DNA of 64,000 bases from the NCBI GenBank assembly GCA_950295325.1, contig OX485803.1, forward strand, positions 65,857,554-65,921,553, in the 5' to 3' direction. Of the stretch, positions 9,258 through 59,176 are shown one piece after another. The position numbers were made by a program, and so were the translations under genes. Numbering within the stretch: position 1 is the first letter of the stretch; each line of letters begins with the position of its first letter. This stretch comes from Polytrichum commune. Lineage: Eukaryota > Streptophyta > Polytrichopsida > Polytrichales > Polytrichaceae. The notes under the pieces are model-generated. The model saw only the letters and a program-made list of their open reading frames with translations, was not told the origin of the DNA and searched no databases.

Positions 9258-9431
9258 ATGGATAAAGGTGAATACTCTAGCAAGGGCAATGTGAAGGAAA
9301 GGGTGATCAAAAGCAAAAGGGGAATATCCTTGAGAACTTGTGTTGCCAAGGCCGCCGGTTGGACCCTAAAAAAAGCCAACGCGACCACGAGCCAAGAGGC
9401 TACTTCTAATAAACAAAGTGATTCACAATGA
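9258..9431 (+). CDS. Element-encoded micropeptide, copy 1
   Basis: 57 residues, start ATG 9258. Basic N-terminal half, then the family core read here as RGISLRTCVAKAAGWTLKKA, then a Thr/Ser/Gln/Asn-rich tail. Not a family I recognise; there is no signal peptide or membrane segment, and a small amphipathic helix is plausible for the core. Codons of the core differ from the other three copies mostly at silent third positions. It lies between a conserved hairpin and the conserved 3' end of the LTR-like element. Expression is unproven. Confidence 0.5.
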   Translation: MDKGEYSSKGNVKERVIKSKRGISLRTCVAKAAGWTLKKANATTSQEATSNKQSDSQ

Positions 9432-10743
9432 CATGAATGCTTAAGGATGTGAAGAAATCAATTTTCACGCTACATACACTACATGTGATTCTCAAGACCA
9501 TCACCCGGACTAGGACGCTTAAGGGTGGTGGGTTTGGCCTCACAATTAGATTGCTCGTAGTCAATAGAAATATAAAGGAAGAAACATGAGAAATAATAAG
9601 GTTATAATAAGGCTACCATGCTAGTCCGAAGAGGGATACGAGTTATCCCATATTGTTTGTGAGAACTAGTGAAGAAAAGAAAAGTAATAAAAAACAAAGC
9701 AAGGAGAGCATGAAACCATCTCACTCTAAGTATTGTTCATATATCTTTGTATAGGTGTCTATGCTTGTGCAATCGTATTTCCTATTGATTTCCTATTTGA
9801 CTTGAATGTTTTGGGTGTGTTTAAGGGTTTCTTTGAGAGCTTTGAAGGTGTTTAGACTCTAATAGTACATTACTTGAGAGAATTTAGTATGAAGAGACTT
9901 ATTTGAGAGGTTTGGAGGTGTTTAGACTTTAAAGCATTTGACTTAAATGTTTTGAACGTTTAAGAATTTCTTTGAGAGCATTAAAGGTATTTAGATTCCA
10001 ATACCACATAACTTGAGATGCGTCAAGACGGCCATATCCATCATCGGCCTCAACTTAACGGCCAACCAACTTGCTGTGAGCCCAAAATGGTGCCCACATG
10101 TGGTGATTAACTCTTCGAAACCAATTTTAGTTTGACTTTGATGTGTTATGATTATTCACAAAACATAAAAAGAGTGAAGTGTGGTTTGGATTTAAGTTTA
10201 GGCTTTAGAATGTGTTGTGTGATTATTTCAAGGTTGAATTCAATAAGAGTATGCCTTGATAATGTGAGTAGGGGGTAAGGTGAAGCAAGGTGAGCTCCGC
10301 GGGTTAAATGCCCACTTTTGGATCCACCTTGGTAGTTTAGGAAGAAGGAAGCTTGGTGGAAGGGGATTAGTCCCTACTTTGAAGGTGAAGGTTAAGGGAT
10401 TGTGATTGGAGGTGCTAATCCTCTCACCCTATCCTCACCTCTCTCTCCTTCTCTCCCTCTCTCCCTCTTTGCTACTTAAGGTGTTTTCTCTTTCATTTTC
10501 CTCTCTCTCCATCAAGCGCTCTCAAGGGAGCAAGCTCTTAAGAGCTTGAGCCACATGTGTGGGTTATTAGTTTTAGTGAAGTTAATTAGTTAAGCTCTCT
10601 CTCTCAATACTTCTCAAGTAGAGTGAGCTCTTAGAGCTTGAGACAATGTGTGGGGATTAGGTAGCCCTTTAGTGGAATTAGTGGGTGGGATTAGTTCATT
10701 ATAGGAATAGATTAGTTTATTGATTAAGGCACAAAGAGAAAAG

Positions 10744-10865
10744 ATTGAGTAAGCCCCTGGACTGGGAGACTCTGCTGCTGGACTGCAGCTGGGACCGGTT
10801 AGACCCCGAGACTGGGTAGAGACTCTGCTGTTGGACTGCAGCTGGGACCGGTTAGACGAAGGCCC
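10744..10865 (+). repeat. Two-unit minisatellite in copy 2
   Basis: Two units of about 50 bp, each containing GGACTGCAGCTGGGACCGGT. It occupies the same slot as the unrelated-looking minisatellites of the other copies, with which it shares only a GCTGG-type core. Confidence 0.7.
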
Positions 10866-11093
10866 TGGAATCTGGTTTAATTAGCTGAGGCTGACTGCAT
10901 TAGACAACCGCAGCCGGGAGCTCGTTTCATTAGCCAAAGCATAGTTTAAGTGGGTGGCATTACCAAAATAATCATAGACGCATTAGACCATCTTAGATTA
11001 GATTAGTTTATAGATAAGTGTTAGATTCATTAGGTTAGGCAGTGTCATGTGTGGTGTCACAAGTGATTGTGTTCAAATATTGACTATTGAGAA

Positions 11094-11111
11094 AAGTATT
11101 TTTTAACACTT
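11094..11111 (+). promoter_or_regulatory. Conserved hairpin upstream of micropeptide, copy 2
   Basis: AAGTATT / AACACTT with loop TTTT, 42 nt before the ATG at 11,154. One pair is mismatched (A opposite C); the other copies pair fully. Confidence 0.45.
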
Positions 11112-11153
11112 GCACTTTTTTTTTTGGTCAAAATAAGATCACATGTGCAACGA

Positions 11154-11318
11154 ATGGAGAATGTGGAGGATCCTGGCAAGGGCAATACAAGGGAAGTAAA
11201 GATCAAGGGTGCTAGGGGAATCTCTTTAAGGGCATGCGTGGCCAAGGCCGCGGGTTGGACCCTTGAGAAATCAAATTCCACCACACGCCAAGAGATTCAA
11301 AATAATGTGACAAGTTGA
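11154..11318 (+). CDS. Element-encoded micropeptide, copy 2
   Basis: 54 residues from the ATG at 11,154 (an upstream in-frame extension has no ATG). N-terminus MENVEDPGKG, core RGISLRACVAKAAGWTLE, then a Ser/Thr/Asn/Gln-rich tail. The start region MENVED is also found in copy 3 and nearly so in the short ORF at 58,853, which supports this start. Function unknown. One Cys and one Trp in the core are kept in all copies. Confidence 0.55.
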   Translation: MENVEDPGKGNTREVKIKGARGISLRACVAKAAGWTLEKSNSTTRQEIQNNVTS

Positions 11319-11453
11319 GTTAAGATAAAGTGAGTACCTTGGGCATGAGAGCCACATAGCAATTCACATTATGATGTTATGAAGTGAATGTGATTCTCAA
11401 AACCATCACCCGGACTAGGACGCTTAAGGGTGGTGGGTTTGGCCTCACACTTG

Positions 11454-11930
11454 CACACATCAAAAATTGCAAAGGACCCGTGGAGGCGTGGAATACCCTT
11501 TGCAATATTCACGAAACGAAGAGTTTGTCTAATATTCTTTTCATTCGCCGCAAATTTTTCACATGTAAGATGCAAGAAGACGATGACTTGTTCGACCATA
11601 TCAATAAGATCAAGGTGCTTGCAGATCAACTTGTTTGTTTGGAGGTACATGTGAAAGACGAAAACATAGTCATGACCTTACTTGATAGCTTGCCAACATC
11701 GTTCGAATACTGCTATGAAAACAATGTCAATGAAGGAACTTACAATGGACTATGTAATAGCGCATTTGATGCACGGAATGTCGAAGCGCAAGAAAAAAAT
11801 GCTATAAGGTGAGGACGCCATCATGATGTTGTAACAAGGCAAAGGGGGCAACTTAATTCCGCGTGAAAACGTAAAATTGTGTTACTATTGTCAAAAAATG
11901 GGCCACATTGCGCATTTTTTGCTACAAAAC
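11454..11930 (+). pseudogene. gag: Copia gag fragment (UBN2-like) and zinc knuckle
   Basis: Reads as the central part of a Copia capsid protein (motifs such as EAWNTLCNIHETKSLSN and FTCKMQEDDDL). Soon after a stop near 11,810 comes CYYCQKMGHIAHF, a CCHC knuckle whose last Cys is replaced by Phe. The 5' part of gag is separated by the inserted LTR-like element. Confidence 0.75.
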
Positions 11931-11999
11931 AAAGAACAGGGAGCGAGAACAAATAAAGAATGTGAATGACAATGACAACTACATATTTGTAATGTGTAA

Positions 12000-13290
12000 T
12001 GAAGCATATTCCAAGATTATGTGCAAGTAGATCATGAATTCGAGTGCTTCTAAGTACATGACTTCGCATAATGTCGCGTTTGGCACGTATGAGATAACCA
12101 TTCTATACAATGTGCATTTGGGTGATAATATTGTTGTTCAAAGCTATCGGAATGGAATCCATTATCATGGAAATAATCTTGGGAAATAAAATAAACCAAA
12201 TTCATATAAAAGATGTGCTCCACGTACCCAAATTGCATGCTAAATTTGCTCTCAGTGAGGAAACTTGTGTTGAATGGTTTAAAAGTTCAATTCAACCTAA
12301 ATGCATGCATTATCAAATCTTGCAATAGTGAAGCCACTGTGATTGCACCACACGAACGCAATTTATACGAAATCATTTTGTGAAGGTACATGGAGCGAAA
12401 TTGACCAACTTAGTGCAATCTCCAACATGAGATGGCACGCTCAAACTTTGGCACTACCGCCTTGGCCATTTGAACATAAAGGGTGTTCATACCCTCCAAA
12501 ACATGCTAAGCGGTATGAATCTTGTCAAATTTTCTTGCCCCATATCTTCATTATTTTGTGAAGCTTGCATTGAAAGCAAACAACATAGGGTTGCGCTTCC
12601 AAAAGAAGGAGGGAGGCGAGCGGCCAAGCCTTTGCAAATTGTGCATTCCGACGTGTGTAGCCCCATGAGGACTACACCCATAGGCAGTGTAAGATATTTT
12701 ATAACTTTCATTGATGATTTTTCAAGAAATGTATGCTTGTATGTGTTGAAATCTAAAGGGATTTTTTTTGATAAGTTCAAAGAATTCAAAGCATTCATAA
12801 AGACACAATCAGAGCACAAAATCAAAATGTTTCGGTCGATAAAATGCCGGGGAGTTTGTTTTTGAAGGATCATGGTATCAAGACGCAAACGTCTTCCCCA
12901 TATACGCCTTAACAAAATGAAGTGGTGGAGTGTGCGAAACGTATCATCACGGAGATGGCAAGGAACATGTTTATGCTCAAAACCTCGACAAATCGTTTTG
13001 GGCGGAAGTAGTAGTTAATGCGGTTTACACACGAAACCGTTGTCTAATAAGGGCGTTAGATTTCATTACGCCCGAGGAAAAGTGGAGCAGAAGGAGGCCT
13101 TGCATTGCACAAGAAAAAAATTGCACATATGCATGTATTTGGGTGTGTCGCCTACACAATGGTGCCGGATGAACAAAGGGATAAACTTGATACAAAGGAC
13201 ACAAAATATTTGTTTTTGGGTTATTGTGAGGGCACTAAGGCCTATAAGCTAATGTGTTTACAAATTTAAAAAATCATAAAAAAATAGAGA
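12000..13290 (+). pseudogene. pol: Copia protease and integrase remnants
   Basis: A protease-like stretch near 12,030 reads MNSSASKYMTSH where the family has D-S/T-G-A, so the catalytic Asp is lost. It is followed by GDNIVV-like and VLHVPKLHAKF blocks in shifting frames. The integrase starts with a degraded H-H-C-C region (CEACIESKQHR) and has VHSDVCSPM and FIDDFSR, then frameshifts into a C-terminal region (WAEVVVNAVYTRNR, TPEEKW). Many stops. Confidence 0.75.
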
Positions 13291-13299
13291 TGTAGTATT

Positions 13300-15087
13300 T
13301 GTAGTTAGCTTTTTGGTTACAAACAAAACCCAAGGAAACACTCAGGGAAGACTTAAAAGGTGATTGTGGTGATATCTAGGTGTCTCAAATGGGTTTGCTT
13401 AGGGAAATTACCGAGTTATTACACTTGTAATTCCGGTTTGCAGCTCACATTTGGATTGGAAATACATAACAAAAGCTGGTAAATCTCTCATCAACAGTAC
13501 ATGCAATAGTGGCAGTCACTCTCCTCACTCTAATTCCCCAGACAATTGTCTGGCAGTGGGTTCATTTCAATTAAACAATAGTGCAGTGCACAAGCATAGG
13601 CACAGCCATAGACCATTGTCATGAATAAAGTACCACATTTTGGTCTAATTCCAAAGGCGAGGGCCCTCTGGAGAAACCCATAGACTTTCCTTCATTAATC
13701 CCTTTTAATATAACTTGAAATGTCAGTTCAATAATTCTTACAAGGTTGTTCTACATTCATTAATTAAATAATCCTTTTAATGTGCCAGTCCGACAATTGT
13801 CTTTTTGATTAGTACCTTGTCACCGCAAAGTATAATGCCATGGTACCTGTTGCTTTTAACATCACTCTCTGATATTGCTTTCCTTCAATTGAATAATTTC
13901 ATTTAGCTTATGGGATTACCAATTGTTTTACACAGAATAATTAAGCAAGCTCAAGTCACATTTTCAATATACTCATAGAAATCAATACATGGTACCATGA
14001 GAGCAGGTCAAAGGATTCCAGCAAACTCCAATCGGTAATTCCAGGTTCTCTTCACAGACAATGGACTTCTCATCTCGCCCCTTCAGCACCACCGGAGTCT
14101 ATCGACAGTCACCAAGTGACAGACACTGAAACCGCTTCATCTTCAAAGGTGTAGGCCGTCGTGACAAATTCGGCTGAGTCTATAGACCACTCAAACTGCT
14201 CGTCTATTGCCCTGCAACTTCACGACCACCGGCACAAGCACTCCGGCTATTGAACAACTTTATGTTTCCTTCAAACTTTACCCTTTCCAGGCTATGGTGA
14301 ATGCGACAACGATCCCTCACAACTTATTCTCTCGTGCAGACAATAATATTTAACAAGGGAAAATCTCAGCACGGTGATCACAGGGGAAGCTAAGTTTATG
14401 ATTCTACTTCGGAACACTTCATCAATTCACAATCATTCTCGATCATTCAATCACTCTGTTAATATGGTATTAATGCCAGAAACTCGGAGTAACTGAAATC
14501 CAGCACGATTTATTAAGATGATAGTCAAATTGATGATTACTCTTTAAACTAGCTCAGCCATCTCTCTCGTTGAATACACACAAAATTGATAATAACAGAC
14601 AAGTCCAATCACACACTGCGACAGATAATGGACAAGGTAAGTATTTCAAAACAAACTGACTCAGGGATCACACATGAATAGCCTCGCAATCTTCTGCGTA
14701 AGTTGACCACATATCCAACAACAGATGATAACTTTATCTCCGGTTGCAAAACAAATCCAGAAGTTGGTAGAATGGAATGATCACTCAAAAGTCAGACAAT
14801 GGCACAATGGCCGAATAGCTTTCTATTCAAAACAATAATATGTCAATTCGCCAAAGGAGATAGTGGTCCCCTCTCTTAAGTCATTTTCAGGCTATATACT
14901 TTCCCTGAGAGAATCCAGGGACTACACTTCCCTGAATCAGACGATAGCCCTTATAATCCCGAGTTCCTGGAATCTCAAGATAATAGCCTCTACTTTGCGT
15001 TCTAGTTTGATAATATCAGGCTATTGTCCTACCCTGTTCACATCTATTCCTGAAATGGTTACTCAAAACCAAAAAAGTTGGATGACA
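13300..15087. mobile_element. TG...CA element (probable solo LTR) inside Copia
   Basis: 1,788 bp starting TGTAGTTAGC and ending TTGGATGACA, flanked by the 5-bp duplication GTATT (13,295-13,299 and 15,088-15,092). Removing it and one duplication rejoins the Copia reading. It shows no similarity to the TGTGAG family and contains no convincing ORF. Orientation and superfamily are not determined. Confidence 0.75.
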
Positions 15088-15092
15088 GTATT

Positions 15093-16947
15093 CATGAAAG
15101 ATGATACGAGCGTTGGAAATGCTTTGGAGATTCATCCAAGTGGAAGAAATGAAGGTCCTACGGCATTTGTTATGGACAAATCGTCCAAATCATCTTCTTG
15201 TGATGATGGTGAGGAGCGCGATGAGCAAGTGGGAGATCACTTGATTATAAATGAGGAGGCAATCAAAATTCCTGCGAAGAATGACGACCGTGTTGAGAAA
15301 TTCAATAAGTATGGAATATATCCTAAGAGGGAGCGACATCCACCCGGAGAGTGATGGAAGAATCATATTCTACCCCAACACGGCGAAGAACGGGCCAATA
15401 TGATATTGTTGGATGATCATTTGAATTTATGCAAAGCGTTGATAACCAAAGATACGAGCAAGTGGGAGGCCGCAATGCAAGAGGAGTACGACTGCTTATG
15501 GCGAACAATGCGTAGAAATTGACCAAGCTTCCAAAGGATCGTAAGAGCGTAAGATGCAAATGGGTGTTTTACACCAAGAATGATGCATTGGGTGAAATTA
15601 TTAGGTATAAGGCACGGTTAGTAGCAAAGGGATATTCTCAAGTGGCCGGAGTGAATATTAATAAGACCTTTCCTCCCGTGACCAAATTTATCATCATTAG
15701 ATGCATACTCGTATTAGGAGCAACCTTGAATTGTGAGATCCACCAAATGGATGTAAAAACGGCATTTTTTAATGAAATATTGAAGGTGAAGATTTACTCA
15801 GATCAACTAGAGGGTTTCATACAAGAGGGGAAAGAAGATCTTATGTGCAAACTCAACAAAGTTTTGTACGGGTTCAAGCAATCGCGAGGGCGTGATACCA
15901 CCGTATCGACTCATTCTTTATTAATGAGGGCTTTTGTAGGAGCCAAACGGATCATTCGTTGTACGTCAAACAAACGGGTGAATATTTTTTGGTGGCAATT
16001 CTTTACGTGGATAATTTGATCATATTGGCAAGCAATATAACCCAATAGAAGTGGCTCAAATCAGAGCTCTAGATGAGCTTTGAGATGAAATGAGCGATCT
16101 CGAAGAATTGCATTATTGCCGAGGAGTGGAATTTGAGAGGAATAGAGAAGCTTGTACCATTCTCATAAACCAAAAGAGCTACATGGAAGAGATCCTCAAG
16201 CGTTTTAACATGGAAAAATGCAAACCGGTTGGAACTCTATTCGATGTGAATTCTAAATTGTTAAGACTTTCGGATGAGGAATTTATAAATGTGCAAAGAG
16301 AAATAAAAGGTGTTCCATACAAGGCTGAAGTAGGATCTCTTATGTATGCAATGATGGCCACAAGGGCCCATATTGCATTTGCGGTAAGTACAGTGAGCCA
16401 ATTCATGTCAAAGGCCGGTCCACCACATTGGATGGTTGTAAAACGCATCATAAGATATTTGAAGGGCACTTTGGACTTCAAATTTTGCCTCGGAGGCAAT
16501 GATATTGTCTTAAGAGGTTTTTGTTATGCGGATGAGGCGGGAGATGCAAACGACCGGCGATCCACCACGGGATACGTATTTTTTGCCAGCGTTGGAGTCA
16601 TTTTATGGAAATGCAAGAAACAACCAACCATTGCATTATTTACAACGGAGGCGGAATACATGGCTACTAGCCACTGTATTAAGGAAACACTTTGGCTTCG
16701 GCAACTTTTGGCGGATGTGGGATATGTGCAAGAAGGACCGACATCCATCATGTGTGACAATCAAGGATGCGTAGCGCTTGCAAAGATTCCCACACACCAT
16801 TCTCACACCAAACATATCAATGTACAACATCACTTCATTAGAGAGAAACTAGAAAACCAAGATATATGTTTGAAATATTATCCTACGGAGGATATGATAG
16901 CGGACGTGCTAACCAACCACTTGCAAAAGATAGGCATCAAACATTAA
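15093..16947 (+). pseudogene. pol: Copia reverse transcriptase and RNase H remnants
   Basis: The linker (KRERHPP) leads into RT with CKWVFYTKN, KARLVAKGYSQ, EIHQMDVKTAF and GFKQS, then a frameshift and YVDN where YVDD is expected (about 16,003). The frame from 16,090 to 16,947 is long and runs through MEEILKRF, YLKGTLD, the RNase H blocks CYADEAGD, TTEAEYMA and CDNQGCVAL, and ends HLQKIGIKH. The first catalytic block normally reads D-A-D. The RNase H half is much better preserved than the rest. Confidence 0.85.
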
Positions 16948-17260
16948 CAAAGACAATGGGTTTAGAAGCCTTTGAGTACTCACAAAGTGGGAGTATAGAA
17001 GGTAGAACATTAGATTGCTCGTAGTCAATAGAAATATAAAGGAAAAAAACATGAGAAATAATAAGGTTAGAATAAGACTATCATGCTAGTCTGAAGAGGG
17101 ATACGAGGTATCTCATATTGTTTGTGTGAACCAATAAAGAGAAGGAAAACAATAAAAGGCAAAGCAAGGAGAGCATGAGACCATCTCAATCCAAGCATTG
17201 TTCATATACCTTTGTATAAGTGTCTATGTTTGTGCAATCTTATCTCCTATTGATTCGAAT

Positions 17261-19800: not shown

Positions 19801-19827
19801 GAACAGTAAAAACTTATTTCTATAAGT

Positions 19828-19865
<38 letters not shown>

Positions 19866-19866: not shown

Positions 19867-19869
19867 ATT

Positions 19870-39108: not shown

Positions 39109-41158
39109 CTAAGAAAAACGATGCTTCTTCTGAGCCGTTCCCTCCTTTGAATGGATGCCAAGTCCACTGACGGCGGATGAGCCCCCTCCCGGCGATGCCT
39201 TCTGCAGCCGCGTGAGCATCCTCCTCATGTTCGGAGAAGGGGCAATTTCATCCTCCGAGTCCGCTGCTCTCTCGGTCCGCGGTGTTCCGGATCCTGGTGT
39301 TCCGGAAACTGTATTACCCTTCCGGATGCTCCGGATCGGGGAAGGATCGCTTCCGGTGTGCTGTTCCGGATTCTGTCCACCCGAGGTCAAGGCAGTCCGC
39401 GGATCCCTGTTGGAGGCCGCCCTCGAGGGTGGCGGAGGGAATGGGCTAACCATTTGGCAGTCTAGAAGAGACGACGGCGAGGCTTGGGTCATAGGGGCCT
39501 TACCCCTGCTCGGAGTTGCCTCTCGATCCGAAGTCTGGTGCCTTATTGGCGTCCTAGCCCTGTCCGGAGTCCGGGACCGATCCGAAGTCCGCGGGACAGG
39601 GGACTGGCCCCGTCCGGATCTAACAGACCCGGTGCTCTTCCGCCTCACCTGGGGAGAGCGGATCCTTTCCGGAGCTCTTCCAGAACTAGCAGGCCGAGAA
39701 CCGCCTCCCTGCTGGCTGGGTCTTGCAGACGTTGGCGGATTCTGGACCAGGGCGACTTCACCAACCACCTCGTAGAGGGTTCCGGTTGGTGACCCAGGCG
39801 GACCCGAATAGAGCACCTTCCGGGGTGTTCCGCTTGGCGGAACCACCTTCTGGATTTCCGCTAGGAGATCCTTCATCGTCCGTGAGTATTTCATGAGGAT
39901 GGGGAGGGTCTGTCTGGCGGAAGCGGGTTCTCCGGACTCCATCATCCGGTCGTAGAGATGCGCCTTGTTGACGATCTCTGCCGGATGCCCCACCAGCTCC
40001 CGGATCCGACTGAAGACCACTGCCTGCTCCGCGTGGTACTTCCAGATCTCCTCACTCTTCTGACTCAGCTCCTGAGTCATGGCCACTACCTGCGCGGTGA
40101 GGTGAGCATTCTCCGTCCTGGCTTGCTCGAGCTCCTTCCTGTCCGCCGTCTTTGCCAATTCTCGGAGAATGTTTCCGGGTCCGCAGTCGTCCAGGGCCTG
40201 GTTCGCTCCTCGGACGATGTGTTCCAGCCGGTAGTACTGGTTCTGTAGGTCCTCCAACCCCTCCTGGACCCGCTTGAAGGGATTTTCCGGAAAATCCCAG
40301 GCGGAGAGATCTACATTCCGCCAAGTGGTCTCCCGGCTAGGTCTAGCTTCCGGATGATAGTGAGGGGGAGGAGAGCTTGGCCTCTGGACGGTCGGCGGTG
40401 GGCTTCCGGGTGAAGAGGGAGGGGCCTCCGAAATGATGGGGTCGCTGGAAGTCTCCATCTCGAGGTCTCCAGCTTCCGGATGGAGCTTGTAGGTGACCTC
40501 GTCCGCCACTATCGTCAACAGGTCCTCCTCCTCAGCCGTGATGCAGTCGAAATGCTGATAGAGGTGCAGAATGAAGGGGGAGGAAGGAGGGTTTCCGGCC
40601 TATATGGGGGAGGGCCCGTCCTACTATCTCTTGAATGATCAGCCCCCAATTCACTGGCTGAACTCCGGACATAGCTCCGAACAGGGTGTTAGCCATGGTA
40701 AGGCTAATCCTCTTCGGCTTGTCCGGGTTTAGGATGGGCAGGAGGAACTCTAACACCCTCTGCTCTCTTAGGTTCCGGCAGTTCCCGGGGTGAAAACCGT
40801 CCTTCGGGTCCGCGTCCCCTCTAAATTTTCCGGCGAATAGGCCATCGCGGCGGCCGGCCCATCCTTCCGTAATTCCCCTCGGAAACCCGTAGACCCTATT
40901 CCATACATCCGGAGTCCAACTATCCGGATCCCTCATCTTGGTTCCTCACCACTGATTTCCTCTCTCGAACTTGAACTCCCGGAGAGTATCTTCCGCTCGG
41001 AGGTTCCAGGGTTTGGCGAGCAACCCCGCGCAACCCATAACCCGGAGATCCTCCGCTAGCTCTTGCAACTCCCCGTCCTCCCTCGGAATTGCAGGGATGA
41101 GGGCTTTGAGCGGAACCGGGATGGGTTCCCTCCGATCCTCTTCCCGTGCTTCCGGCAT
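39109..41158 (-). pseudogene. Gag-like transposon protein, one stop and one frameshift
   Basis: Starts MPEAREEDRRE at 41,158. An in-frame TGA follows residue 70 (about 40,946), and reading resumes in the same frame with DSWTPDVWNRVYGF and GMSLT-less SLTMANTLFGAMSG up to about 40,570. A frameshift there moves to the frame that runs uninterrupted to 39,109 (469 codons). The middle (about residues 330-400) is Glu/Gln/Leu-rich and coiled-coil-like; the C-terminal third is Pro/Ser/Arg/Thr-rich and disordered (RTPDRARTP). The first domain resembles the putative plant transposon protein type (NW..II.EIV, then a hydrophobic P-F-I-L-H-L-like stretch), a gag-like fold; this is inference. No protease or polymerase. 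Confidence 0.55.
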
Positions 41159-42023: not shown

Positions 42024-43677
42024 TGTCAGCCATAAACCCCCACCCTTGTGCGTTGTAATCCGGGTGAGAGCCCATGGCTCACATGCACTTGCCTACTTTC
42101 CCTTAGCCTTGGAATTAAGCTCCCAACGCCACAACCAAATAAATATAAAACACACAACTTTTATTCAAATGGCCCAAGGTACAAGTATTGAGAAATACTC
42201 TATGCCCTTGTGGTCATTGCCCACGCATACTCATCCATCATGTCACACTGAAAACACTAAACCTCACTACACTGAACTATGCTAAGCATGGTTTAAGGCC
42301 AACACCAAATCAACGGTCGTCAAGGCCAATTCCCTTGCCAAGATTTGCTAATTAGGTAATACATTTTTCCTCTACCCTACGTATGAATCACCTACATCCC
42401 TAATCCTAATTCCTAAGTCCCTTACTACCTACCATTTGGATCTACCAGCCCAGTGCTATCCCCTGTTCCAACTCAGTTAAGCCGTGCCCATAACCTCGAC
42501 AGTGGTTGATTCCTGATTCCGGCAGCCTCTTAGGCCTTCGGCCTAGTTCATCTAACGGTCGTTGTATGTACCGACCTTGAGCCTCCTGCCCTGGCAACGC
42601 ACTCCGTTACCACAAGCTCTAGCCCCTCCCACAACAGTTGTTGCCACTTGCTTGCACAGACTCTTGAAATTCAAGCTCCCTGTGATCACCTGCAGCTACA
42701 TTCAGCCGCATTCGAGGCACTGAACCTCTACAGATTCGCCACTATCTAGTCAATTGACCAGAAATTGAACTCGGGGGGGCTTCGCCTTGGTTGGTGAACC
42801 GAACTTTGACCCTTCAATCAGATTCAGAGTGTGGCAAACTTCCCTCATTCAAGTATGAGCGTCGAATTTCCTTGCTGGCCGCCTGGTCGCATCTCTCTAA
42901 TGCCCATTCTTCAGTCCCTCCTACAAATTCTGGCACCCTCCTCCGCGGTCAATCCCCTTTGTGCGGCTACTGAGCTTCCACCCACCCCATTGCGAGTTCG
43001 ATTCTCACTCTGGGTTCCAGCACACCTCGGGGACATGCTTCCTTGCCCCCTAGCCCATTCCATACTCTTCACACACCAGAAGAGCCCTTGAGCCTAGAAT
43101 CCACAACCTTCTGCCCCAACCCCAGATTATTTCTTCCTCTGTACCCACTTCTCTATGCCTACATTTGCTGCTTTCCCCACCATGAGTTCAATGTCGCCAA
43201 TTTTATGGTAATTGAGCCTCCCAACATCCCGCTGGCCGAAGGCAATGCAGACCAACTCCAAAAAATCGCAACATCGGACTGCGCGACGCCCACCGCGGCT
43301 GCTCCACCTCTGTTCAGTTGATTAGAGAGCCCGAGAGAGAGAGAGAGGATCCCCTCTTCCTTTGCAGATCCCCTAGATTATCCACAAGGCCCTAACCCCC
43401 CCCCCCTAAACGGACAGCGAGGTGCCTAATTCAAACGCTAAAACCCTGAATTCGAACCCTCTGCCTGAAGTAATACCTAACCCTCAACAATTACTAGATC
43501 AATTAAGCGATGATCCTAACCTCTAATTAACTCAACACACGAGCTTTAAGTAACTCCAATCTAAGCTAATGAACATCACTCTTTTTATTGTTTTTGAACG
43601 TTTCATGTAAATCCAAAGCCTAAAATTTTAATTATTTTAAGATTAAGAACGCATGTGGGCACGATTTTGGGCTCACA
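42024..43677 (-). mobile_element. TGTGAG-family LTR-like element, copy 5 (no micropeptide)
   Basis: On the minus strand it starts TGTGAGCCCAAAATCGTGCC and ends in the conserved CACCCGGATTACAACGCA...GGGTGGGGGTTTATGGCTGACA block (in pieces), with the 5-bp duplication GAAAG (CTTTC on the plus strand at 42,019-42,023 and 43,678-43,682). 1,654 bp. It keeps the hairpin (42,184-42,199) but has no RGISL-type ORF. A CT-dinucleotide run lies near 43,340. Confidence 0.8.
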
Positions 43678-48602: not shown

Positions 48603-49366
48603 TACTTGTGAGCCCAAAATGGTGCCCACATGTGGTGATTAACTCTTCGAAACCAATTTTAGTTTGACTTTGATGTGTTATGATTATTCACAAAACATAA
48701 AAAGAGTGAAGTGTGGTTTGGATTTAAGTTTAGGCTTTAGAATGTGTTGTGTGATTATTTCAAGGTTGAATTCAATAAGAGTATGCCTTGATAATGTGAG
48801 TAGGGGGTAAGGTGAAGCAAGGTGAGCTCCGCGGGTTAAATGCCCACTTTTGGATCCACCTTGGTAGTTTAGGAAGAAGGAAGCTTGGTGGAAGGGGATT
48901 AGTCCCTACTTTGAAGGTGAAGGTTAAGGGATTGTGATTGGAGGTGCTAATCCTCTCACCCTATCCTCACCTCTCTCTCCTTCTCTCCCTCTCTCCCTCT
49001 TTGCTACTTAAGGTGTTTTCTCTTTCATTTTCCTCTCTCTCCATCAAGCGCTCTCAAGAGAGCAAGTTCTTAAAGAGCTTGAGCCACGTGTGTGAGACAT
49101 TAGTTCTTAGTGAAGTTAATTAGTTAAGCTCTCTCTCTCAATGCCTCCCAATTGAGGGAGCTCTTAGAGTTTAAAGTTGCACGTGTTGACTAGTTAGTAG
49201 TTAGTGCAATTAGTGTGTTAGATTAGTTTATTATTTAGGAGCAAGGAAAAAGAAAGAAAAAAAAAAAACTTAGAAAACATGTGATTAGGGAAGGAGAGAG
49301 TTTGGATTAGGGTGCAACTAGTGGTTGGGATACCCATTCGGGTATTATAACTTCATATACTGAAAT

Positions 49367-49835
49367 CAGAAGGCAGCTGGGCTTGGAGGTTAGACCACCC
49401 GGGACTGGAACAGAAGGCAGCTGGGCTTGGTAAGTTAGGCCACACCGCGACTGGAATCAAAGGCAGCTAGGCTTGGTAAGTTAGACCACCCGGGACTGGA
49501 ACAGAAGGCAGTTGGGCTCGGTAAGTTAGGCCACACCGCGACTGTAATCAGAAGGCAGCTGGGCTTGGAGGTTAGACCACCCGAGACTGGAACAGAAGGC
49601 AGCTGGGCTCGGTAAGTTAGGCCACACCGCGACTGTAATCAGAAGGCAGCTGGGCTTGGTAAGTTAGGCCACACCGCGACTGTAATCAGAAGGCAGCTGG
49701 GCTTGGAGGTTAGACCACCCGGGACTGGAATCAAAGGCAGCTGGGCTTGGAGGTTTGACCACACCCGGGACTGGAATCAAAGGCAGCTGGGCTTGGAGGT
49801 TAGACCACACCCGGGACTGGAATCAGAAGGCAGTT
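49367..49835 (+). repeat. Minisatellite of copy 3, about 43-bp unit
   Basis: About eleven units containing AAGGCAGCTGGGCTTGG and GTTAGACCACCCGGGACTGG, with two alternating variants (CACCCGGGACTGGAA and CACACCGCGACTGTAA). Confidence 0.9.
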
Positions 49836-50020
49836 GGGTTGCCTAGCAACAATTCATTTAGACTATCTAGGGGTTAGCAAGGCTAGCTCAAGTAGTAAGT
49901 ATTAGCACATAAAAAACTAGATCACATTAGGCCATCTTTAGTGGTAGCTAAGAAGTTATATTCATTTAGGCTAGTTGGTGCCACGTGTGGGTTTGCAGGA
50001 GTGTGTTTAACTATTGAGAA

Positions 50021-50038
50021 AAGTGTTTTTCAACACTT
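50021..50038 (+). promoter_or_regulatory. Conserved hairpin upstream of micropeptide, copy 3
   Basis: AAGTGTT-TTTC-AACACTT, perfect 7-bp stem and tetraloop, 36 nt before the ATG at 50,075. Confidence 0.5.
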
Positions 50039-50074
50039 GCACCTCTTGGTCAAAATAACTCACTTGCATTATTA

Positions 50075-50239
50075 ATGGAGAATGTGGAAGATTCTTGCAA
50101 TGGCAAGAAAAAGGAAGTGAAGATTAAACGAGCGAGGGGAATGTCCTTAAGGGCATGTGTGGCTAAAGCCACGGGTTGGACGCTTGAGAAAGCCAACTCT
50201 ACCACAAACCAAGAGGCTAACATTAATAAAGTACAATGA
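50075..50239 (+). CDS. Element-encoded micropeptide, copy 3
   Basis: 54 residues: MENVEDSCNGKKKEVKIKR, core RGMSLRACVAKATGWTLE, then a Thr/Asn/Gln-rich tail, the same length as copy 2. The ATG context and the MENVED start agree with copy 2. Function unknown. Most core codons differ from copies 1, 2 and 4 only silently. Confidence 0.55.
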   Translation: MENVEDSCNGKKKEVKIKRARGMSLRACVAKATGWTLEKANSTTNQEANINKVQ

Positions 50240-50939
50240 GTGGAAACAATATGTGTTCTTTTGGACATAAAAATTACTTTGCACATGGTTCAAGTTTGTA
50301 AGAGATACATGTGACTCGCAAAGCCATCACCCGGACTAGGACGCTTAAGGGTGGTGGATTTGGCCTCACAATACTCCGCGGACGCCATAAGACTAAGGAG
50401 TGCGACGTGGGGAGGGGACGAAGATGCTAGAACCCCACACAATGAATCCATTATGGTCGACAAACAAACATGGGGACACGAGCCAACGAGTTTTAGGAAC
50501 GGTAACAAAGCTCAAAGGTTAGCTAAGTGGATGGACCTCTCACCTAATAATGATATGAAACTCGTTTGGAGCTTGTACCCAAAGATGTAAATGCCGCACT
50601 CTAACCCAAGGGTGCCACCGGAGATAATTTGGGAGAGACAGCTTAATCCAAATAATAAGAACATGGGCAGCATATACAATGACATCTTAGCTAGCGTTGG
50701 ATTGGATAGCCCAACTACTTCAAAAGAGACTAGGGGAGAGGATGTAATTGGGCAAAGCCAAATAGCAACACCAGTTAATACACCTATCCGTAACAATGCT
50801 ACTAGCCTTAAGGGTCTAGGGAAACATGTTTTAACCCCTAAGTAACGGAGAATATGGAAATTTAGAAGCAAATCCCTGCTAGAGGGTTAGGAAAAGCAAG
50901 GTCACGAAACACCTTTTAGCACCCTTATAAAGTGGAATA

Positions 50940-51780: not shown

Positions 51781-51814
51781 AAGTGGATTAATCTGCCAAA
51801 CGATGTGTCATTCT

Positions 51815-52456: not shown

Positions 52457-52599
52457 GTCATTCTTCTACAAACATAGGCACGTGACTAGATTTTACAAGT
52501 AGCTCAACAAGCAAAAGGCAAAGGAGCACAAGTGGGAAGAACTCAATATTAGGGCCAAGCTAGAGGTAGCCACAGCTAATCTTCATGATGACATATATG

Positions 52600-53880
52600 A
52601 TGTAGGAAAACAAGGGGAGGTTAACCAATACAAGAGTCTCATAAAGGAAATATAGATGAGAAAAGTGCGAGGAGGAGAAGTAAGGTCAAGAATCAAGTGG
52701 CAAAAAGTGGGAGATAAGTGCATTGCAGAGTTTTTTAAGTCAGGAAGACAAAAATACTCGCAAGGAGTCATTTTAGAGCTAAGAGACAAACAAGGTAGAA
52801 CCTTTAGGAAAATGAAGGACCTAGAGAAGATATGTTTTGACTTCTACCGAGACATTTATTAATATAAGTAAGTATCGGAGGACACACTTAGTGAGGTCTT
52901 AGAGGGTCTTCCAACCACGTTTACATCCGCTATGAATGACTCTTCGTCACGAGAAATCACAGAGAAAGAGTTATCTTTAGCAATCTTCTCAATGACAACG
53001 AGGAAAACTTCCGGGCATGACAAAATTCTATGGAGTTGTTTTTGACAATTTTGAATAGGATATGATTTTCACCAAATTTTAAAAAGGGGTTTAGAAAATG
53101 GGACATTGCATGAAGGCATTACTAGGGCGCTTATTAGCCTAATCCCTAAAGAGGGGGAGTCCAAGGATCTCATTTATTGGAGGCCAATAACCTTCCTTAT
53201 GGCAAGTTACAAGGTTATTGCCAAAACCTTACAACCTAGGCTACAACCCGTACTTAGGGATGTTGTTAGCCCAAAACAAAGGACATTTTTTCCCATGAGA
53301 TTATATTGGATAATATAGTGTTGACTTAGGAAACGATGCATTGGGCTAAGATTTCCAAACAATTCACAATTTTCTTAAAACTAGATTTTTCTAGAACATA
53401 TAACAAGGTATTATGGAGGTTCTTTTTCGGGGAAATGCAAAAGATGAATATTTGCAAGAAGCTCATTACTTAGGTCAAGTTACTCTTTGAGAATGCCTTA
53501 GCTGCAATTAACCTCAATGGTAGCCCAGGTAATAATTTAAAGTAGATAGGGGGTTTAGGTAAGGTTGCCCAATTTCTCCTTACCCTTTTCTCATAGTCGG
53601 AGAGGTGTTTACATACACAATAAAAAAATTCCAATGCAAGAGGGGAGGATAAAGCGGGTCTCCCTGCCAAAGAGAAAAAAAACAACAAATCATTTCATAA
53701 TATGCGGATGACCCCTCTTTCATGGTCAAATGGAATAAGTGGCACGTGGACGAGTTTGTATGCCTTCTTAAAATCTTCAATGCGGCCTCTGACATGGAAA
53801 TTAACTGGGAGAAATCATGTGCTTACTGGTTTGATAAATACATGGATTAACCCGAATGGCTCAACGGTTACAATTGGCAA
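52600..53880 (+). pseudogene. LINE reverse transcriptase remnant
   Basis: Blocks in order: VRSRIKWQKVGDKCIAEFF, RALISLIPKEGESKDLIYWR and KVIAKTLQPRL in the palm region, then a Y-A-D-D box near 53,701 and FNAASDMEINWEKS after it. Broken by several stops. Confidence 0.78.
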
Positions 53881-54303
53881 TGGGTAGAGGAAGGGCAACC
53901 TCCCCAAATTGCTTAGCACCCCCTTTGGACTCAACCTCAACAAAAAGTGATGTTGACCGACTGATTCCTCTATAGCAAAATAACTAAGAAACTAGATCAC
54001 TGAAGGACTATGAAATTATCATTTGCAAGGAGAGCGGTTATCTATAACCATGTGTTGTTGTCCACCTTGTGGTTTTTTTATCATTTTATGGGGAGGAGCA
54101 AATAAAATCCTAAGAAAAATCAAAGGAGCAATTCGTAATTACTTATGATCCAGGAAGGAGCAACTTACATGTACCAAAGTTAGTTGGAGAGAGTGTTGCC
54201 TAAAGAAGAAATATGGCGGATTAGGACTAGTGGACCCGGAGGCAGCCAAAACTATTTTACCTTATAAGTGGATAATCAAGGCAATGGAATCGGGTGAGTC
54301 TAA

Positions 54304-54892
54304 GGGCCAGTTCACACATGAACCAAAAGCCGTGACCTTATAACGATGAGGACCCTTGACTCTCATCCTAAGGCTATACCATGGGTGTTGGGAAAGTTGT
54401 CTTATATAGTCACACGCCCTCAAGCATCGTGTGAAGTGAGAATAGACCATGTTGTAGGACCATTACATATTTTGTTGGCAAAAAAAGAGGAGAGGACTTG
54501 GTTTAATATAAAATGTCTCAAACTCTATCAATTTAAGAGAAGTACTTGGTGGTGTTTGTTTGTCCTGGAATTTGTTCAAGAATATGCTCTGTAATCTATC
54601 CTCAAATATGTCCTACTGGAAAATTATTAAAAAAATCATGGTCTCTCAAAATTTGTGTCAGGCCCACCACTTAGAGGTGGGCCTAACAAATTTTCCGGGA
54701 GACCATGTAACCTTATCCATAGTCCGCCATGTAGGACTCCATGTTGACTTTTCATCCATGAAGTCTTCTTTGGGCCTTTAGGCCTTCACCTCCGTGTGTG
54801 AAGTGAACTTGGATGGAATCTGCCCTTTCGACCAATGAGAGCTCTTAGATTGCAATGGTCATGGGCCTTAACTCTTGTGTGTGAAGTGGCCC
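54304..54892. mobile_element. Harbinger-type MITE in the LINE
   Basis: Ends GGGCCAGTTCACAC and GTGTGAAGTGGCCC, flanked by TAA on both sides. Related in its ends to the element at 33,031. The interior has a second strong palindrome at about 54,636-54,708 (CATGGTCTC ... GAGACCATG with GGCCCACC / GGTGGGCC). Confidence 0.75.
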
Positions 54893-54895
54893 TAA

Positions 54896-55385
54896 CCTTC
54901 AACTTATGCTCAAATATAGATTGTCCAGGTTCAACCCATAGAGAGGAAGGAGCTGGGGGGGGGGGGTTAGCCTTGATTGGTTCACTAGCAAACAACACAT
55001 TGGGTTTGCGGGCTCCAAGGTGTGGGGTCATATTAGTAAAGCATGGAAAGTGATGGTGAAAATAATATACCAACTTCCCCCCTACACTAGTTTTGAATTG
55101 CTACATTCGAACATTTGGTGGTCAAACGGTGTGGCACTCATGAACAATGAATTCACTTATGCCAAAGGTCTGGAACTTTACAGCAAGGGTATACATCGTG
55201 TGGGATAGTGAACAACGAGATTTTCTTACTTGGGATAAGGCAAAAGAAAAATTTAGCCTCACATCAACAAAAGTCAAAGACTAGGCCATGGTCACGGATA
55301 AAATCTTCGAAAAGTGGCGGAACCTCTTGGAAGACAACTTGGATACTACTGACCATGGGCAATGGGTTGGCTTTTACATCAATGG
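54896..55385 (+). pseudogene. LINE ORF2 C-terminal remnant
   Basis: LANNTLGLRAPRCG and IWWSNGV, then TYAKGLELYSKGI and WRNLLEDNLD in two frames. Position and continuity with the RT remnant identify it; no separate gene. Confidence 0.6.
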
Positions 55386-55665
55386 GGGGGGGGGGGGGGG
55401 AGGTGTCAGCCCTAAACCCCCACCCTTATGCGTCGTAGTCCGGGTGAGTGCTTAGAGCCCACATGTATTTGATATCCAGTGGCCTCAACTGGAACCTTAG
55501 TGTATCAGGGGTGAATCAAGGTTAATCCCTCCCTTGATTAATTGTGACTCTTGTGATGGGCTTACTTCCCTTGATTGCGCCAACCCACATCATGTTGGTC
55601 AACACCTGTGTAGTCTCCTAATGGAATTATGCAATGGAACTTTTCCTTTATTATTCTCAAGAGGC

Positions 55666-55683
55666 AAGTATTGAAAAATACTT
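55666..55683 (-). promoter_or_regulatory. Conserved hairpin, copy 6
   Basis: AAGTATT-GAAA-AATACTT on the plus strand (loop TTTC on the minus strand). Relative to copy 3 one G-C pair is replaced by A-T, a compensatory change, and the following CCTCTT is also shared. Confidence 0.5.
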
Positions 55684-56089
55684 GAATTACAAATCCACAC
55701 AACAACACATCCCTAACCCCTACCTAACCCCTAACACACGCCCAACCCTCATTACCCAAGTCACGGTCGCAGCTGGACTGGACCCTTCGCCTCACAACAG
55801 CATCGGTGCATGTTCGTCAGTTTGCTTCACAACTTGCGGCAGAGGCCTAAGTAGCTCCAACCCCTCTCCCCTAACAGTGGCCCATGCAGTTGGCCGCAAC
55901 CTCCCCTCGATTGCAATTAGTTTGATCCCCCTTTCCCAGCAGTAGCTGAGCCTGATACTGTAATGGGCTTCGGCAACCCCCCTTCTCAGATATTCCTTCC
56001 TCATCATTGGCGATAGTCCACGTTCTCTCGGCTGCATTAGTCGGCAACCACTCGTAGATCCCTCTGAGAGTGATCAGACCTTCCCTTCT

Positions 56090-57067
56090 TGTCGCGCACC
56101 TCTCCATGAGGAGTGGCCGAAACACCATGGGCACAAGGGGGACCCCGGAGTGACACCCGGGACTTGTGGCGCCGTTGGTGAGAGGGCCCAAGTGATCCTA
56201 GTGTGGATGAGGTCCCCGGGCGTTGGGAACGCCTCCCATCCACGAAGACTAGGAGGCACAAGGGTAAGGCCATGAGTTATGCGTAGCTCATGGCCTAGTG
56301 ATTCTAGAATGCTCAAGAACACCTCAATCGGAGGTGTGAGCTAGGAGTTATGGCCATTTGAGTGGGGCGCTGTCCCGGGACAGCGCCCTGCTACAGCAGT
56401 GCCTGGGAGTGATTCCCGGGACTGCCAAGGTTCAAACAGGCATAACTTCCTCACCACTTGCCCGAATGGGGCAAGTGAGGAGTCCATCGGCATCTACGTG
56501 AAGCGTAGATGAAGATGGAGTGGTTGGTTGGTTGCTGGAATCAGACATCATACAAGGAAGTTATGATGGTCTGAAGCTGCTGGGGGCTTCTAGGCCCAGC
56601 GGCTAAGGGAAAATGTCCACTTGGCCCCAACTCTTGGTAGAGAGACAAGAGGTTGGTTGACGGTGGGGTAGGGGCCCCGCGTAGAGTCCTAGACGCTTAT
56701 ATGGGTGAGGTGGTGTGGCCTCACCCACCCGAGGCCGAACGGCACGGCCTCCATGGGCATTGGCCCATTGTGAGGCCATAGTTGCCTAGTATGGTTCGGG
56801 TTGTTGTAGTGTTGCCCCGGCAACGCGATGATCAACATAGGATTGGACTTCCATGGATGGAAGTCCACATTGGGGAAATGGGTTACCGATTAAGGGGTGA
56901 GTCCCGAAAGCAAAGTAGGAGGGTTGGTTCCCTCCTATGAACTATTGGTCCGGGGTAAGAGGAGCTATCCATTAGCATGGCGGAATGCTAAGGGTTAGCC
57001 ACTCGTAACCTTTGCTAGAATTCAAAATAACCAAGATGGTCAAGGGGGGCTAGCAAGGGTTGCGACA
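56090..57067 (+). mobile_element. Solo LTR of the Gypsy family
   Basis: 978 bp, TGTCGCGCACC...GGTTGCGACA, flanked by the perfect 5-bp duplication CTTCT (56,085-56,089 and 57,068-57,072). Closely matches the LTR at 59,550-60,543. Internal region lost by LTR-LTR recombination. Confidence 0.95.
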
Positions 57068-57946
57068 CTTCTTCAATCTCCTCCCCGCATTCTTCGCCCT
57101 ATTCAGGAGGAATTCATGTAATGCAGCTACCTCCTCCCTCTCGAATTCGCCCCAGTGTCGCCAGTGGTGAGAGGTGCAGTTTGATGCGCCAGTAACGATT
57201 TTCTCACCCGCCTCACGGCTATCTGCAAAACGATCCGCCACAACCCAGCTGTGAGCCCAAAAGGGTGCCCACATTTAGTCTTAGACCCTTGAAACGTTAG
57301 TTGATGCACTTTGAAGTAGCATGTTACTTCACAAAAATATAAAAAGAGTGAAATGTTAGTCTTAGAAGTACCATGTTGTAAGAGGCTAGGATGTGAGTTG
57401 TTATTGTGTTTTTACCTTCGGAAGGATTTGAATGAATGAGGATAGGTAAGGAGAACTTGGATTGAGTAGTTAGTGAGTAGGCTAGTACAAATGGATGGAG
57501 ACAACCAAAGTGACTCAAGAGGCAAGTGCATTCGAATTGGGATGAATGGAGGATCACATGGAGCGCACAAGTGGACCACCTCATCATGGCCACTTAATGG
57601 GGAAGGCCCAAGGAAGAATGCAAGGTGGAGGATAAGCAAATTCTCAAAGCACCAATCAAATCACGAGTTAAGCATCGTGGTTTGAATTAAGTGGTGAGCG
57701 ACGATTTGGGAAAGTAAGGGGAGAAAGTTATGGCGGCGGAAAGCAAAGGAGGCTAAGTTTGGGTTGAAGCATCCCAAGTTTGGTAAAGTGTGGTAGGTAG
57801 AAAGCCAAGGCTAGTTAAATGTTCGAATTAGGATCCTTGTTGATCATTTGAGGGAGGAAGACTTAGAAGATAGGATTGGCGCCTACTAAGTAGGAGGAAA
57901 TCTCAAGGGCTTATCGTGAGCCTTGAGGGTGCTCACCCCCTCAAGC

Positions 57947-57962
57947 TTACTATATAATCCCT
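57947..57962 (+). promoter_or_regulatory. TATA-like box of copy 4
   Basis: CTTACTATATAATCCC followed by a pyrimidine-rich stretch (CTCACTCACTCTCTCTTTCC). The arrangement matches a transcription start region of an LTR. Confidence 0.45.
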
Positions 57963-58464
57963 CATTTTTCCCTCACTCACTCTCTCTTTCCTTTGTGCTC
58001 CAAGGCACCCCACGAGTTATAAGTGTGGGTGTGGGAAGCCATATTGGAGCACATGTGTGTGCTTAGTTTTTAGTTTGAGAGCCAAGGCTTGTTAGCCTTG
58101 AAGAGGGCTTGACCTCTTGGTAGAATTAGTGTTGACGTGAAGAATTTTAAAGTTAATTCATGATTCCAATTTGTGGTACTTAAAGTTCATGTTTTGAATA
58201 CACGTGGTTGCAAGTTCCATGTTTAAGAGTTGAGCACTTGATGTTGTGATGAGTGCAAAAATATACTTGTGTGGATTAGTTAGTCTTAGTGAAGTTAGGA
58301 AATTCTCTCTCCCCCTCTCCTCTCTAGGATTTTAGGATTTTAGGATTAGAGAAGAATTGTGTGATTAGAAAGGGGTTGTTAGTAGAATTAGGGAAATTAG
58401 GTAGGAAGATTAGTTAAGGGCTTGAATAATTAGTGAGGTAGTTGGGGATTACAATTACAAAGTT

Positions 58465-58700
58465 GTGGGTTCATGAAGGAGCTGGGTTTATGAAGGAGCT
58501 GGGTTTGTTTAGTTAGAAAGTAAAGAGCTGGGTTTATGAAGGACCTGGGTTTGTTTAGTTAGAAGCTAAGGAGCTGGGTTCATGAAGGAGCTGGGTTTGT
58601 TTAGTTAGAAGCTAAGAAGCTGGGTTTATGAAGGAGCTGGGTTTATGTAATTAGAAAGTAAAGAGATGGGTTCATGAAGGAGCTTAGTAGATAGCCTACC
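58465..58700 (+). repeat. Minisatellite of copy 4, about 48-bp unit
   Basis: Around five units of GAAGGAGCTGGGTTTGTTTA plus GTTAGAAGCTAAG-type sequence. Confidence 0.85.
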
Positions 58701-58796
58701 TAATTAGCTCATAGACAAGTAGTTAGTTACATTATGCTAGTTAGTGTTATGTGTGGCTTTCACAAGTAAATGTATTTGAGATTGACTATAGAGAAT

Positions 58797-58813
58797 AGTG
58801 TTTTTTTAACACT
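58797..58813 (+). promoter_or_regulatory. Hairpin of first module, copy 4
   Basis: AGTGTT-TTTTT-AACACT, 39 nt before the ATG at 58,853. Confidence 0.45.
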
Positions 58814-58852
58814 TGCATCCTCTCTTTAAAAATAAACCACGTGCACAACTTA

Positions 58853-58930
58853 ATGGAGAATGTGGAGCACTCTCGCGATGGCAAGACAAAGGAAGCAAAG
58901 ACCAAAGGTGCGAGGGAGAGATTGACATAA
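58853..58930 (+). pseudogene. Truncated micropeptide, first module of copy 4
   Basis: 25 codons beginning MENVEHSRDGKTKEAKTKGAR, clearly the N-terminal half of the micropeptide. It then reads RERLT-stop instead of the conserved core. Confidence 0.5.
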
Positions 58931-58937
58931 GTCACAT

Positions 58938-58955
58938 AAGTATTTCTTAATACTT
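58938..58955 (+). promoter_or_regulatory. Hairpin of second module, copy 4
   Basis: AAGTATT-TCTT-AATACTT, perfect 7-bp stem, 8 nt before the ATG at 58,964. Confidence 0.45.
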
Positions 58956-58963
58956 AAAGGCTT

Positions 58964-59176
58964 ATGTACGGTATGGAGACACCAAGTGAGACCTCTTATA
59001 GTAGCGATACGGAATACACAAGTGATAGTTCAAGTGGTAGTATAGAGTCAACGGTACGGACTCCATTTAGGAGAGGGATATCCTTAAGGGCTTGTGTAGC
59101 TAAAGCAGCCGGATGGACGTTAGAAGCAAACAAAGACAAAATAGCACCCGAGCATAAGGAGGTTAAAATAACATAG
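58964..59176 (+). CDS. Element-encoded micropeptide, copy 4
   Basis: 70 residues. A new Ser/Thr-rich N-terminus (SSDTEYTSDSSSGS) replaces MENVED, then the intact core RGISLRACVAKAAGWTLE and a charged tail (KDKIAPEHKEVKIT). A second ATG follows three codons after the first. The core is kept although the N-terminus was exchanged, which points to the core as the functional part. Function unknown. Confidence 0.55.
   Translation: MYGMETPSETSYSSDTEYTSDSSSGSIESTVRTPFRRGISLRACVAKAAGWTLEANKDKIAPEHKEVKIT

Follow-up and report, generated by a model that had tools for sequence, protein, structure and literature searches.

Long terminal repeats (LTRs) are usually treated as regulatory, non-coding DNA. 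A protein-coding open reading frame (ORF) inside an LTR is known from a vertebrate retrovirus, the mouse mammary tumour virus with its sag ORF, and for the short ORFs in the leaders of plant pararetroviruses it is position and structure that are known to matter, not the peptide. Here we describe a micropeptide ORF within the LTRs of a Ty3/gypsy retrotransposon family of Polytrichum commune, found in a stretch of 64,000 nucleotides (assembly GCA_950295325.1, contig OX485803.1, positions 65,857,554 to 65,921,553; in the following the window) that is part of a 408-Mb assembly with 64 contigs, of which contigs C1-C7 measure 42-78 Mb. Four copies of this ORF in the window encode a common core of 18 amino acids, and the comparison of genomic copies shows that this core is under strong purifying selection, with flanks that are near neutral, and that the ORF is a protein-coding ORF of the retrotransposon. 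Like sag, it lies within the LTR, although the sag protein is much longer, and unlike in the pararetroviral short ORFs it is the peptide sequence itself that is selected.

Extra ORFs of plant LTR retrotransposons, termed aORF or eORF, have been described in the internal region, where their most frequent site is between pol and the 3' LTR (PMC7264820, as far as its excerpted text goes). The micropeptide ORF resembles them as an extra sense ORF beside gag-pol that occurs in many copies and has no known homologue, and it differs from them in lying inside the LTR, as seen in the LTRs B, C and D of the window and in four full-length copies, and not in the internal region (same excerpt, PMC7264820). 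A plant survey from 2019 set a minimum of 250 codons for the eORFs it counted, and these proved highly divergent, according to its excerpt (PMC6317226). Unlike the ORFs surveyed there, the micropeptide ORFs have 54, 54, 57 and 70 codons and a nearly invariant core, and LTR-borne micropeptides of this size would therefore go uncounted under the threshold given in that excerpt (PMC6317226). With the conserved-peptide upstream ORFs (CPuORFs) of plant and animal mRNAs the micropeptide ORF shares a signature of selection at the peptide level and would share the position of a short ORF ahead of a main ORF (PMC2075485, PMC9305500, both in excerpt). In plant pararetroviruses, for which ribosome shunting is described, the capsid ORF is likewise preceded by a long leader containing short ORFs, an arrangement that the element would have in common with them (PMC5902531, also in excerpt). 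The peptide-level conservation by which CPuORFs are recognised, a Ka/Ks well below 1, is found in the core as well. Among the matches listed in a search of the open-licence literature, judged from titles and the starts of abstracts and with subscription papers and Repbase-type libraries outside its range, there was no LTR-borne ORF, upstream ORF or micropeptide like this one.

A six-frame scan of the window found the core four times, always on the plus strand, at 9318 (16/18 matches), 11214 (18/18), 50135 (16/18) and 59072 (18/18), and no fifth core with at least 8/18 matches. A hidden Markov model built from the four copies likewise found no further core in the window, only a coreless N-terminal piece in LTR D. 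The ORFs and their cores are:

9258..9431, plus strand: micropeptide ORF A, 57 amino acids
9318..9371, plus strand: core A, RGISLRTCVAKAAGWTLK
11154..11318, plus strand: micropeptide ORF B, 54 amino acids
11214..11267, plus strand: core B, RGISLRACVAKAAGWTLE
50075..50239, plus strand: micropeptide ORF C, 54 amino acids
50135..50188, plus strand: core C, RGMSLRACVAKATGWTLE
58964..59176, plus strand: micropeptide ORF D, 70 amino acids, with its own N-terminus and tail
59072..59125, plus strand: core D, RGISLRACVAKAAGWTLE

Among these four cores, 17 of the 18 codons are variable, TGG being the sole invariant one. Thirteen of the 17 vary only synonymously, and the replacements I3M, A7T, A13T and E18K occur in one copy each. 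The original prediction, made from the window alone, had placed four cores at these positions and had given the same codon tally, which was borne out in every count. Variable columns are found at 4, 0 and 17 of the 18 first, second and third codon positions, respectively (hypergeometric P = 2e-9). The ratio of the proportions of replacement and synonymous differences (pN/pS) is 0.02-0.13 over the six pairs of cores, and it is 0.54-0.66 outside the core in the three alignable ORFs, where the N-terminal part has 0.28-0.60 and the tail 0.69-0.94; by the former value, the N-terminal part departs somewhat from neutrality between B and C. Core D matches at all 18 positions although the N-terminus and the tail of ORF D cannot be aligned with those of A, B and C.

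The same pattern is found genome-wide. A genome search with the core as query gave 1,690 candidates, and all of the 150 that were scored matched at 18/18 residues without stops; as the query was the core itself, this selection bias precluded the use of these 150 copies for an estimate of omega, the ratio of replacement to synonymous rates (dN/dS). Copies were instead chosen by DNA, the query being the 3'-terminal 64 nt of LTR B, a stretch outside the ORF. This gave 1,199 candidates, of which the best 40 were scored; all 40 are identical to the B terminus over 62-64 nt, so that relatives of B are covered best. Windows of 141 nt were read for 35 of the 40, while of the other five one is element B, three lie at loci of the core search and one was unread. 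The core is present at a threshold of at least 15/18 in 33 of these 35 LTR ends (12 with 18 matches, 16 with 17, four with 16 and one with 15), with a stop at codon 18 in one of the 33. The 21 distinct cores among the 33 copies have a pN/pS of 0.13. In the 27 B-like copies, counted as distinct sequences, it is 0.21 for the core, 0.94 for the 12 codons before it and 0.89 for the 10 codons after it, with 11 synonymous and 7 replacement variants in the core versus 10 and 35 in the flanks (P = 0.007). The original prediction had inferred conservation at the protein level within LTR-like elements, and these additional copies strengthen it; it had also named a dN/dS close to 1 in a large set of copies, or the same divergence at every codon position, as the outcomes that would speak against it, and neither was seen in the 33 DNA-selected copies. 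We are highly confident that the ORF is coding and selected.

A parsimony tree of these 33 copies and the four window copies, for which the omegas are rough owing to the short windows, places 21 synonymous and five replacement changes of the core on internal branches (omega ~0.10). All five replacements fall at codons 2 and 3, and residues 4-18 (SLRACVAKAAGWTLE, 15 residues) show zero replacements on the internal branches of this sample. Terminal branches carry 24 synonymous and 15 replacement changes (omega ~0.27), which is also below neutral (P = 4e-5), and the difference between internal and terminal branches is not significant (P = 0.17).

The ORF is carried by LTRs of a Ty3/gypsy family whose gag and pol frames are open. 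In the window, B, C and D have both ends and 5-bp target duplications, with one mismatch in the case of C. These three share the LTR start TGTGAGCCCAAAA, and the LTR end of ~65 nt reads ..GGTTTGGCCTCACA or a close variant thereof:

9480..9544, plus strand: conserved LTR 3' end of element A, 5' end not found
10075..11449, plus strand: solo LTR B, 1375 bp, TG..CA, perfect target duplication CTTGC on both sides
48607..50370, plus strand: solo LTR C, 1764 bp, flanks GTACT/ATACT (4/5 match)
57250..59379, plus strand: solo LTR D, 2130 bp, perfect target duplication CCAGC on both sides
42024..43677, minus strand: related LTR E with hairpin (42183-42200), without core, target duplication CTTTC
55404..55683, minus strand: 3' part of related LTR F with hairpin (55666-55683), without core

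Solo LTR D is of the same type as the LTRs of three full-length gag-pol copies. Among the core-search hits, 86 of the 150 rows contain 19 same-strand neighbours with a spacing of less than 15 kb, which is 9.29-9.83 kb in 18 cases and 7.59 kb in the remaining one. Three of the long copies, analysed as the pieces L009-L011, L012-L014 and L015-L017, have LTRs of the type of window LTR D, of 2193 and 2152 bp in the cases with both ends read, and the two LTRs of a copy differ at 1, 1 and 0 of ~2,200 sites (the third pair compared from the start of the piece). In all three the gag frame spans 601 codons up to the end of the piece, and the next piece begins with a pol frame of 1484 codons. In the copy scanned with Pfam (L009 and L010), gag, aspartic protease, reverse transcriptase (RT), RNase H and integrase follow in that order. 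Pfam gave no chromodomain match in the C-terminal piece of L010, by which a chromovirus would have been recognised, and the carrier is left as Ty3/gypsy. Target duplications are TTGGT for L009-L011, CTTAC for L012-L014 and CTGAG for the shorter element L049-L051, and the start of the 5' LTR of L015-L017 lies outside the piece. A TGG-type primer binding site, TGGTGCGTCCGCCGGGAG, which we take to resemble tRNA-Gly(UCC), is found 4 nt past the LTR in L009, L012, L015 and L049; by eye, there is no clear polypurine tract immediately ahead of the 3' LTR in L010. An origin as a DNA transposon, with inverted ends and a target duplication of 5 bp, was considered and dropped, as the full-length copies show paired repeats, primer site, gag and pol.

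Each of the three full-length D-type copies has an intact peptide in its 5' LTR and in its 3' LTR. With 1077 bp, the LTR of the 7.6-kb element L049-L051 is shorter; the pair differs at five aligned sites and one gap, with extra internal sequence in the 3' LTR. This element contains gag and protease pieces and the peptide in both LTRs, and no frame of more than 110 codons was recognised as RT or integrase, these frames not having been part of a Pfam scan. Between the D-type copy (L009, L010) and this deleted copy (L049, L050), the gag and protease pieces have a synonymous divergence (dS) of 0.86-2.5 and an omega of 0.05-0.11, while in the core synonymous change is saturated and the residues are identical, with one replacement step along the codon paths. 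In this one comparison of two subfamilies the core is thus held about as tightly as gag and protease. A constraint comparable to that on the proteins of the element places the selection in the source elements, and this explains why young and solo LTRs carry the core. The original prediction had left a choice between a source element that needs the peptide and an expression from the copies themselves; the constraint on internal branches, together with that between two subfamilies with a gag/protease dS of 0.9-2.5, favours the former.

Some further observations concern the architecture of these LTRs. LTRs B (10075-11449) and C (48607-50370) are mosaics, with an identity of 94% over the first ~628 nt and of only 73% over the last ~440 nt, which suggests that subfamilies have recombined. 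LTR D contains two hairpin-plus-ORF units at 58797-59176, the first of which lacks the core, and the same arrangement occurs in the full-length copy L009; it looks like the outcome of a duplication of the module or of its acquisition by recombination. Arrays of ~38-60-nt units precede the hairpins of A, B, C and D (8640-8981, 10760-10860, 49352-49838 and 58476-58705), where the first array is assumed to belong to LTR A. The array units differ between the elements, with a recurring GCTGG or AGCTGGG motif (the B array was judged by eye), and those of the D type hold mini-ORFs such as MKELGL. At L017:1878-2360, a 78-nt tandem array with GGTTCAGGCTCACA directly follows the D-type 3' LTR, and at L030:3000-3768 a D-type LTR with an intact terminus misses the hairpin-ORF segment. 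The LTR-end search of a random sample of 20 x 10 kb, all from contig C1, gave one locus with two LTR ends, both without the core. A Copia gag match (Retrotran_gag_2, E 1.5e-22) lies after LTR B, and long ORFs of 746, 543 and 469 codons in the window at 2401-6112 and 39109-40518 have no Pfam match at E 0.01.

The ORF lies inside both LTRs, ~180-310 nt ahead of the LTR 3' end. A transcript that starts upstream of it in the 5' LTR would, because of this location, carry the ORF ahead of the primer binding site and gag-pol. In L009, a TATA-like motif is found at LTR position 702, ~1.1 kb upstream of the ORF at ~1,780-1,990, followed by the LTR end at 2,193, the TGG-type primer site and a gag ATG ~910 nt past the LTR. 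This DNA order of TATA-like motif, ORF, LTR end and gag ATG fits an upstream ORF. An ATG with 20 codons ahead of the core is found in 16 of the 23 distinct ORFs listed, mostly in an ATGG context. The corresponding features in the window are:

9203..9220, plus strand: conserved hairpin upstream of ORF A
11094..11111, plus strand: hairpin of LTR B, with one A-C mismatch
50021..50038, plus strand: hairpin of LTR C
57951..57957, plus strand: TATA-box-like motif of LTR D, a motif match only, with a second match at LTR position 89
58853..58930, plus strand: short ORF with a separate, broken copy of the common N-terminus and without core (MENVEHSRDGKTKEAKTKGARERLT), same in full-length copy L009
58938..58955, plus strand: second hairpin of LTR D, just ahead of ORF D

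The hairpin of 6-7 bp, AAG[TC][GA]TT..AA[CT][AG]CTT, is separated from the ATG by 36-42 nt in A, B and C, whereas in D the distance is 8 nt. Two of its pairs, which the search pattern left free, are kept in 11/11 distinct sequences found in LTR context, with compensatory changes (T-A 9, C-G 2; G-C 9, A-T 2), for a pattern that fixed the other inner pairs and missed B, because of its A-C mismatch, and both D hairpins. The hairpin is common to LTR subfamilies including those without the peptide (E, F and the minus strand of L030), and hence it belongs to the LTR and not to the peptide. Its role is perhaps in 3'-end formation.

From the arrangement of these sequences, we tentatively regard a conserved-peptide upstream ORF in the gag-pol leader as the best reading. 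Transcription would start upstream of the ORF, for the D type at the TATA-like motif that lies within the first third of the LTR. The peptide would be translated as an upstream ORF from the long leader of the genomic RNA. Most likely, the nascent chain would then tune gag-pol translation or switch the RNA between translation and packaging. The solo LTRs of the window would be by-products that inherited the ORF from selected source elements.

Several points weigh against this upstream-ORF reading. The core is not universal in these LTRs: in two of the 35 DNA-selected LTR ends (L081, L085) another sequence replaces it although the terminus is identical to that of B over 62 nt, and the LTRs E and F and both L030 LTRs are without it. 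The TATA pattern matches LTR position 89 as well in D and L009, and LTRs B and C have no match. The presumed start site of L009 is separated from the first ATG of the ORF by 22 other ATGs, several of them in tandem repeats with MKELGL-type mini-ORFs, so that scanning ribosomes would have difficulty in reaching the ORF without splicing, shunting or internal entry in the leader. A single one of the 23 ORFs (L024) lacks an ATG ahead of the core. With the AATAA-like signals that are seen by eye between hairpin and ATG in each of B to F but not in A, the ORF may lie either in the R or in the U5 region. Finally, the constrained part is central and followed by a tail of 13-21 residues. Known arrest upstream ORFs are usually conserved near the stop, and the micropeptide ORF differs from CPuORFs in this respect as well as by its site in a retrotransposon LTR.

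The strongest alternative, somewhat doubtful and judged likewise from the sequences, is an accessory peptide that acts in trans, for example a short helix binding Gag, the genomic RNA or a host factor, and not an upstream ORF in cis. The constrained block is compact and its flanks are loose on either side, as would fit a binding motif, and the joining of the core to N-termini and tails that cannot be aligned between the A/B/C type and the D type fits a portable module. Moreover, the peptide is retained in the two LTRs of the 7.6-kb copy, for which no frame was recognised as RT or integrase. A position ahead of gag would however be unusual for an accessory gene, and neither a fold nor a domain or homologue was found in Pfam and PDB searches. 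The best Pfam match, SLBB with E 0.012, is below its cut-off and leaves this likeness unsupported, and the same holds for a helix-turn-helix likeness of VAKAAG, as Pfam gave no such match. The PDB returned one chance-level match (E 0.88) with the sequence and none with the profile, and no homologues were confirmed in viral contigs or prokaryote genomes. These searches fit the earlier statement that no described protein has this core. An AlphaFold model on the four-sequence alignment is of low confidence (mean predicted local distance difference test score, pLDDT, of 58), with one short helix at residues 25-32, in the core.

A further possibility, which we think unlikely, sees the LTR as a cassette of promoter, hairpin, micropeptide ORF and terminator, whose many dispersed copies, solo LTRs among them, would jointly make a trans-acting peptide as a copy-number sensor that regulates the expression or the copy number of the family. 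Decidedly improbable is an expression and selection of the copies themselves, including solo LTRs, by the host or as a dispersed gene family. The shortage of replacements also on terminal branches would agree with it, but these branches include long subfamily stems (e.g. D, C, A, L079, L083, L084), and the singletons in the B-like copies comprise eight synonymous and five replacement changes, one of them a stop, while the flanks of the same copies are near neutral. Still less probable is that the conserved block is an RNA or DNA element, such as a primer, packaging or integrase site, with the coding pattern as a by-product: it is indeed flanked by the hairpin and by the LTR terminus, both of which are conserved at the nucleotide level, yet such an element would not spare nucleotides by codon position, as the window copies do with their invariant second and almost throughout variable third positions. 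In the DNA-selected cores, pN/pS exceeds 2 in four of the six frames and is low only in the sense frame and in one antisense frame that shares its third positions (0.21). That this antisense frame, whose ORFs overlap the core, is the coding one is the least probable of all, as a stop interrupts it inside the 141-nt window in 29 of the 33 copies, versus one of 33 for the sense frame, and as the variants that discriminate between the two frames favour sense over antisense by 6:1 over both sets (5:1 in the window four, 3:0 in the DNA-selected copies), being silent in that frame only. A microexon or splice fusion to gag was also rejected, as the alignment shows, by eye, no shared GT after the core.

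Taken together, the data suggest that these terminal repeats, a kind of DNA to which only regulatory functions are usually ascribed, code for a peptide required by the element. If the peptide is real, LTR libraries would hold a testable class of selected small ORFs, and this Ty3/gypsy family with its near-identical LTR pairs would be a case in which it can be asked why an element puts a peptide ahead of gag-pol.

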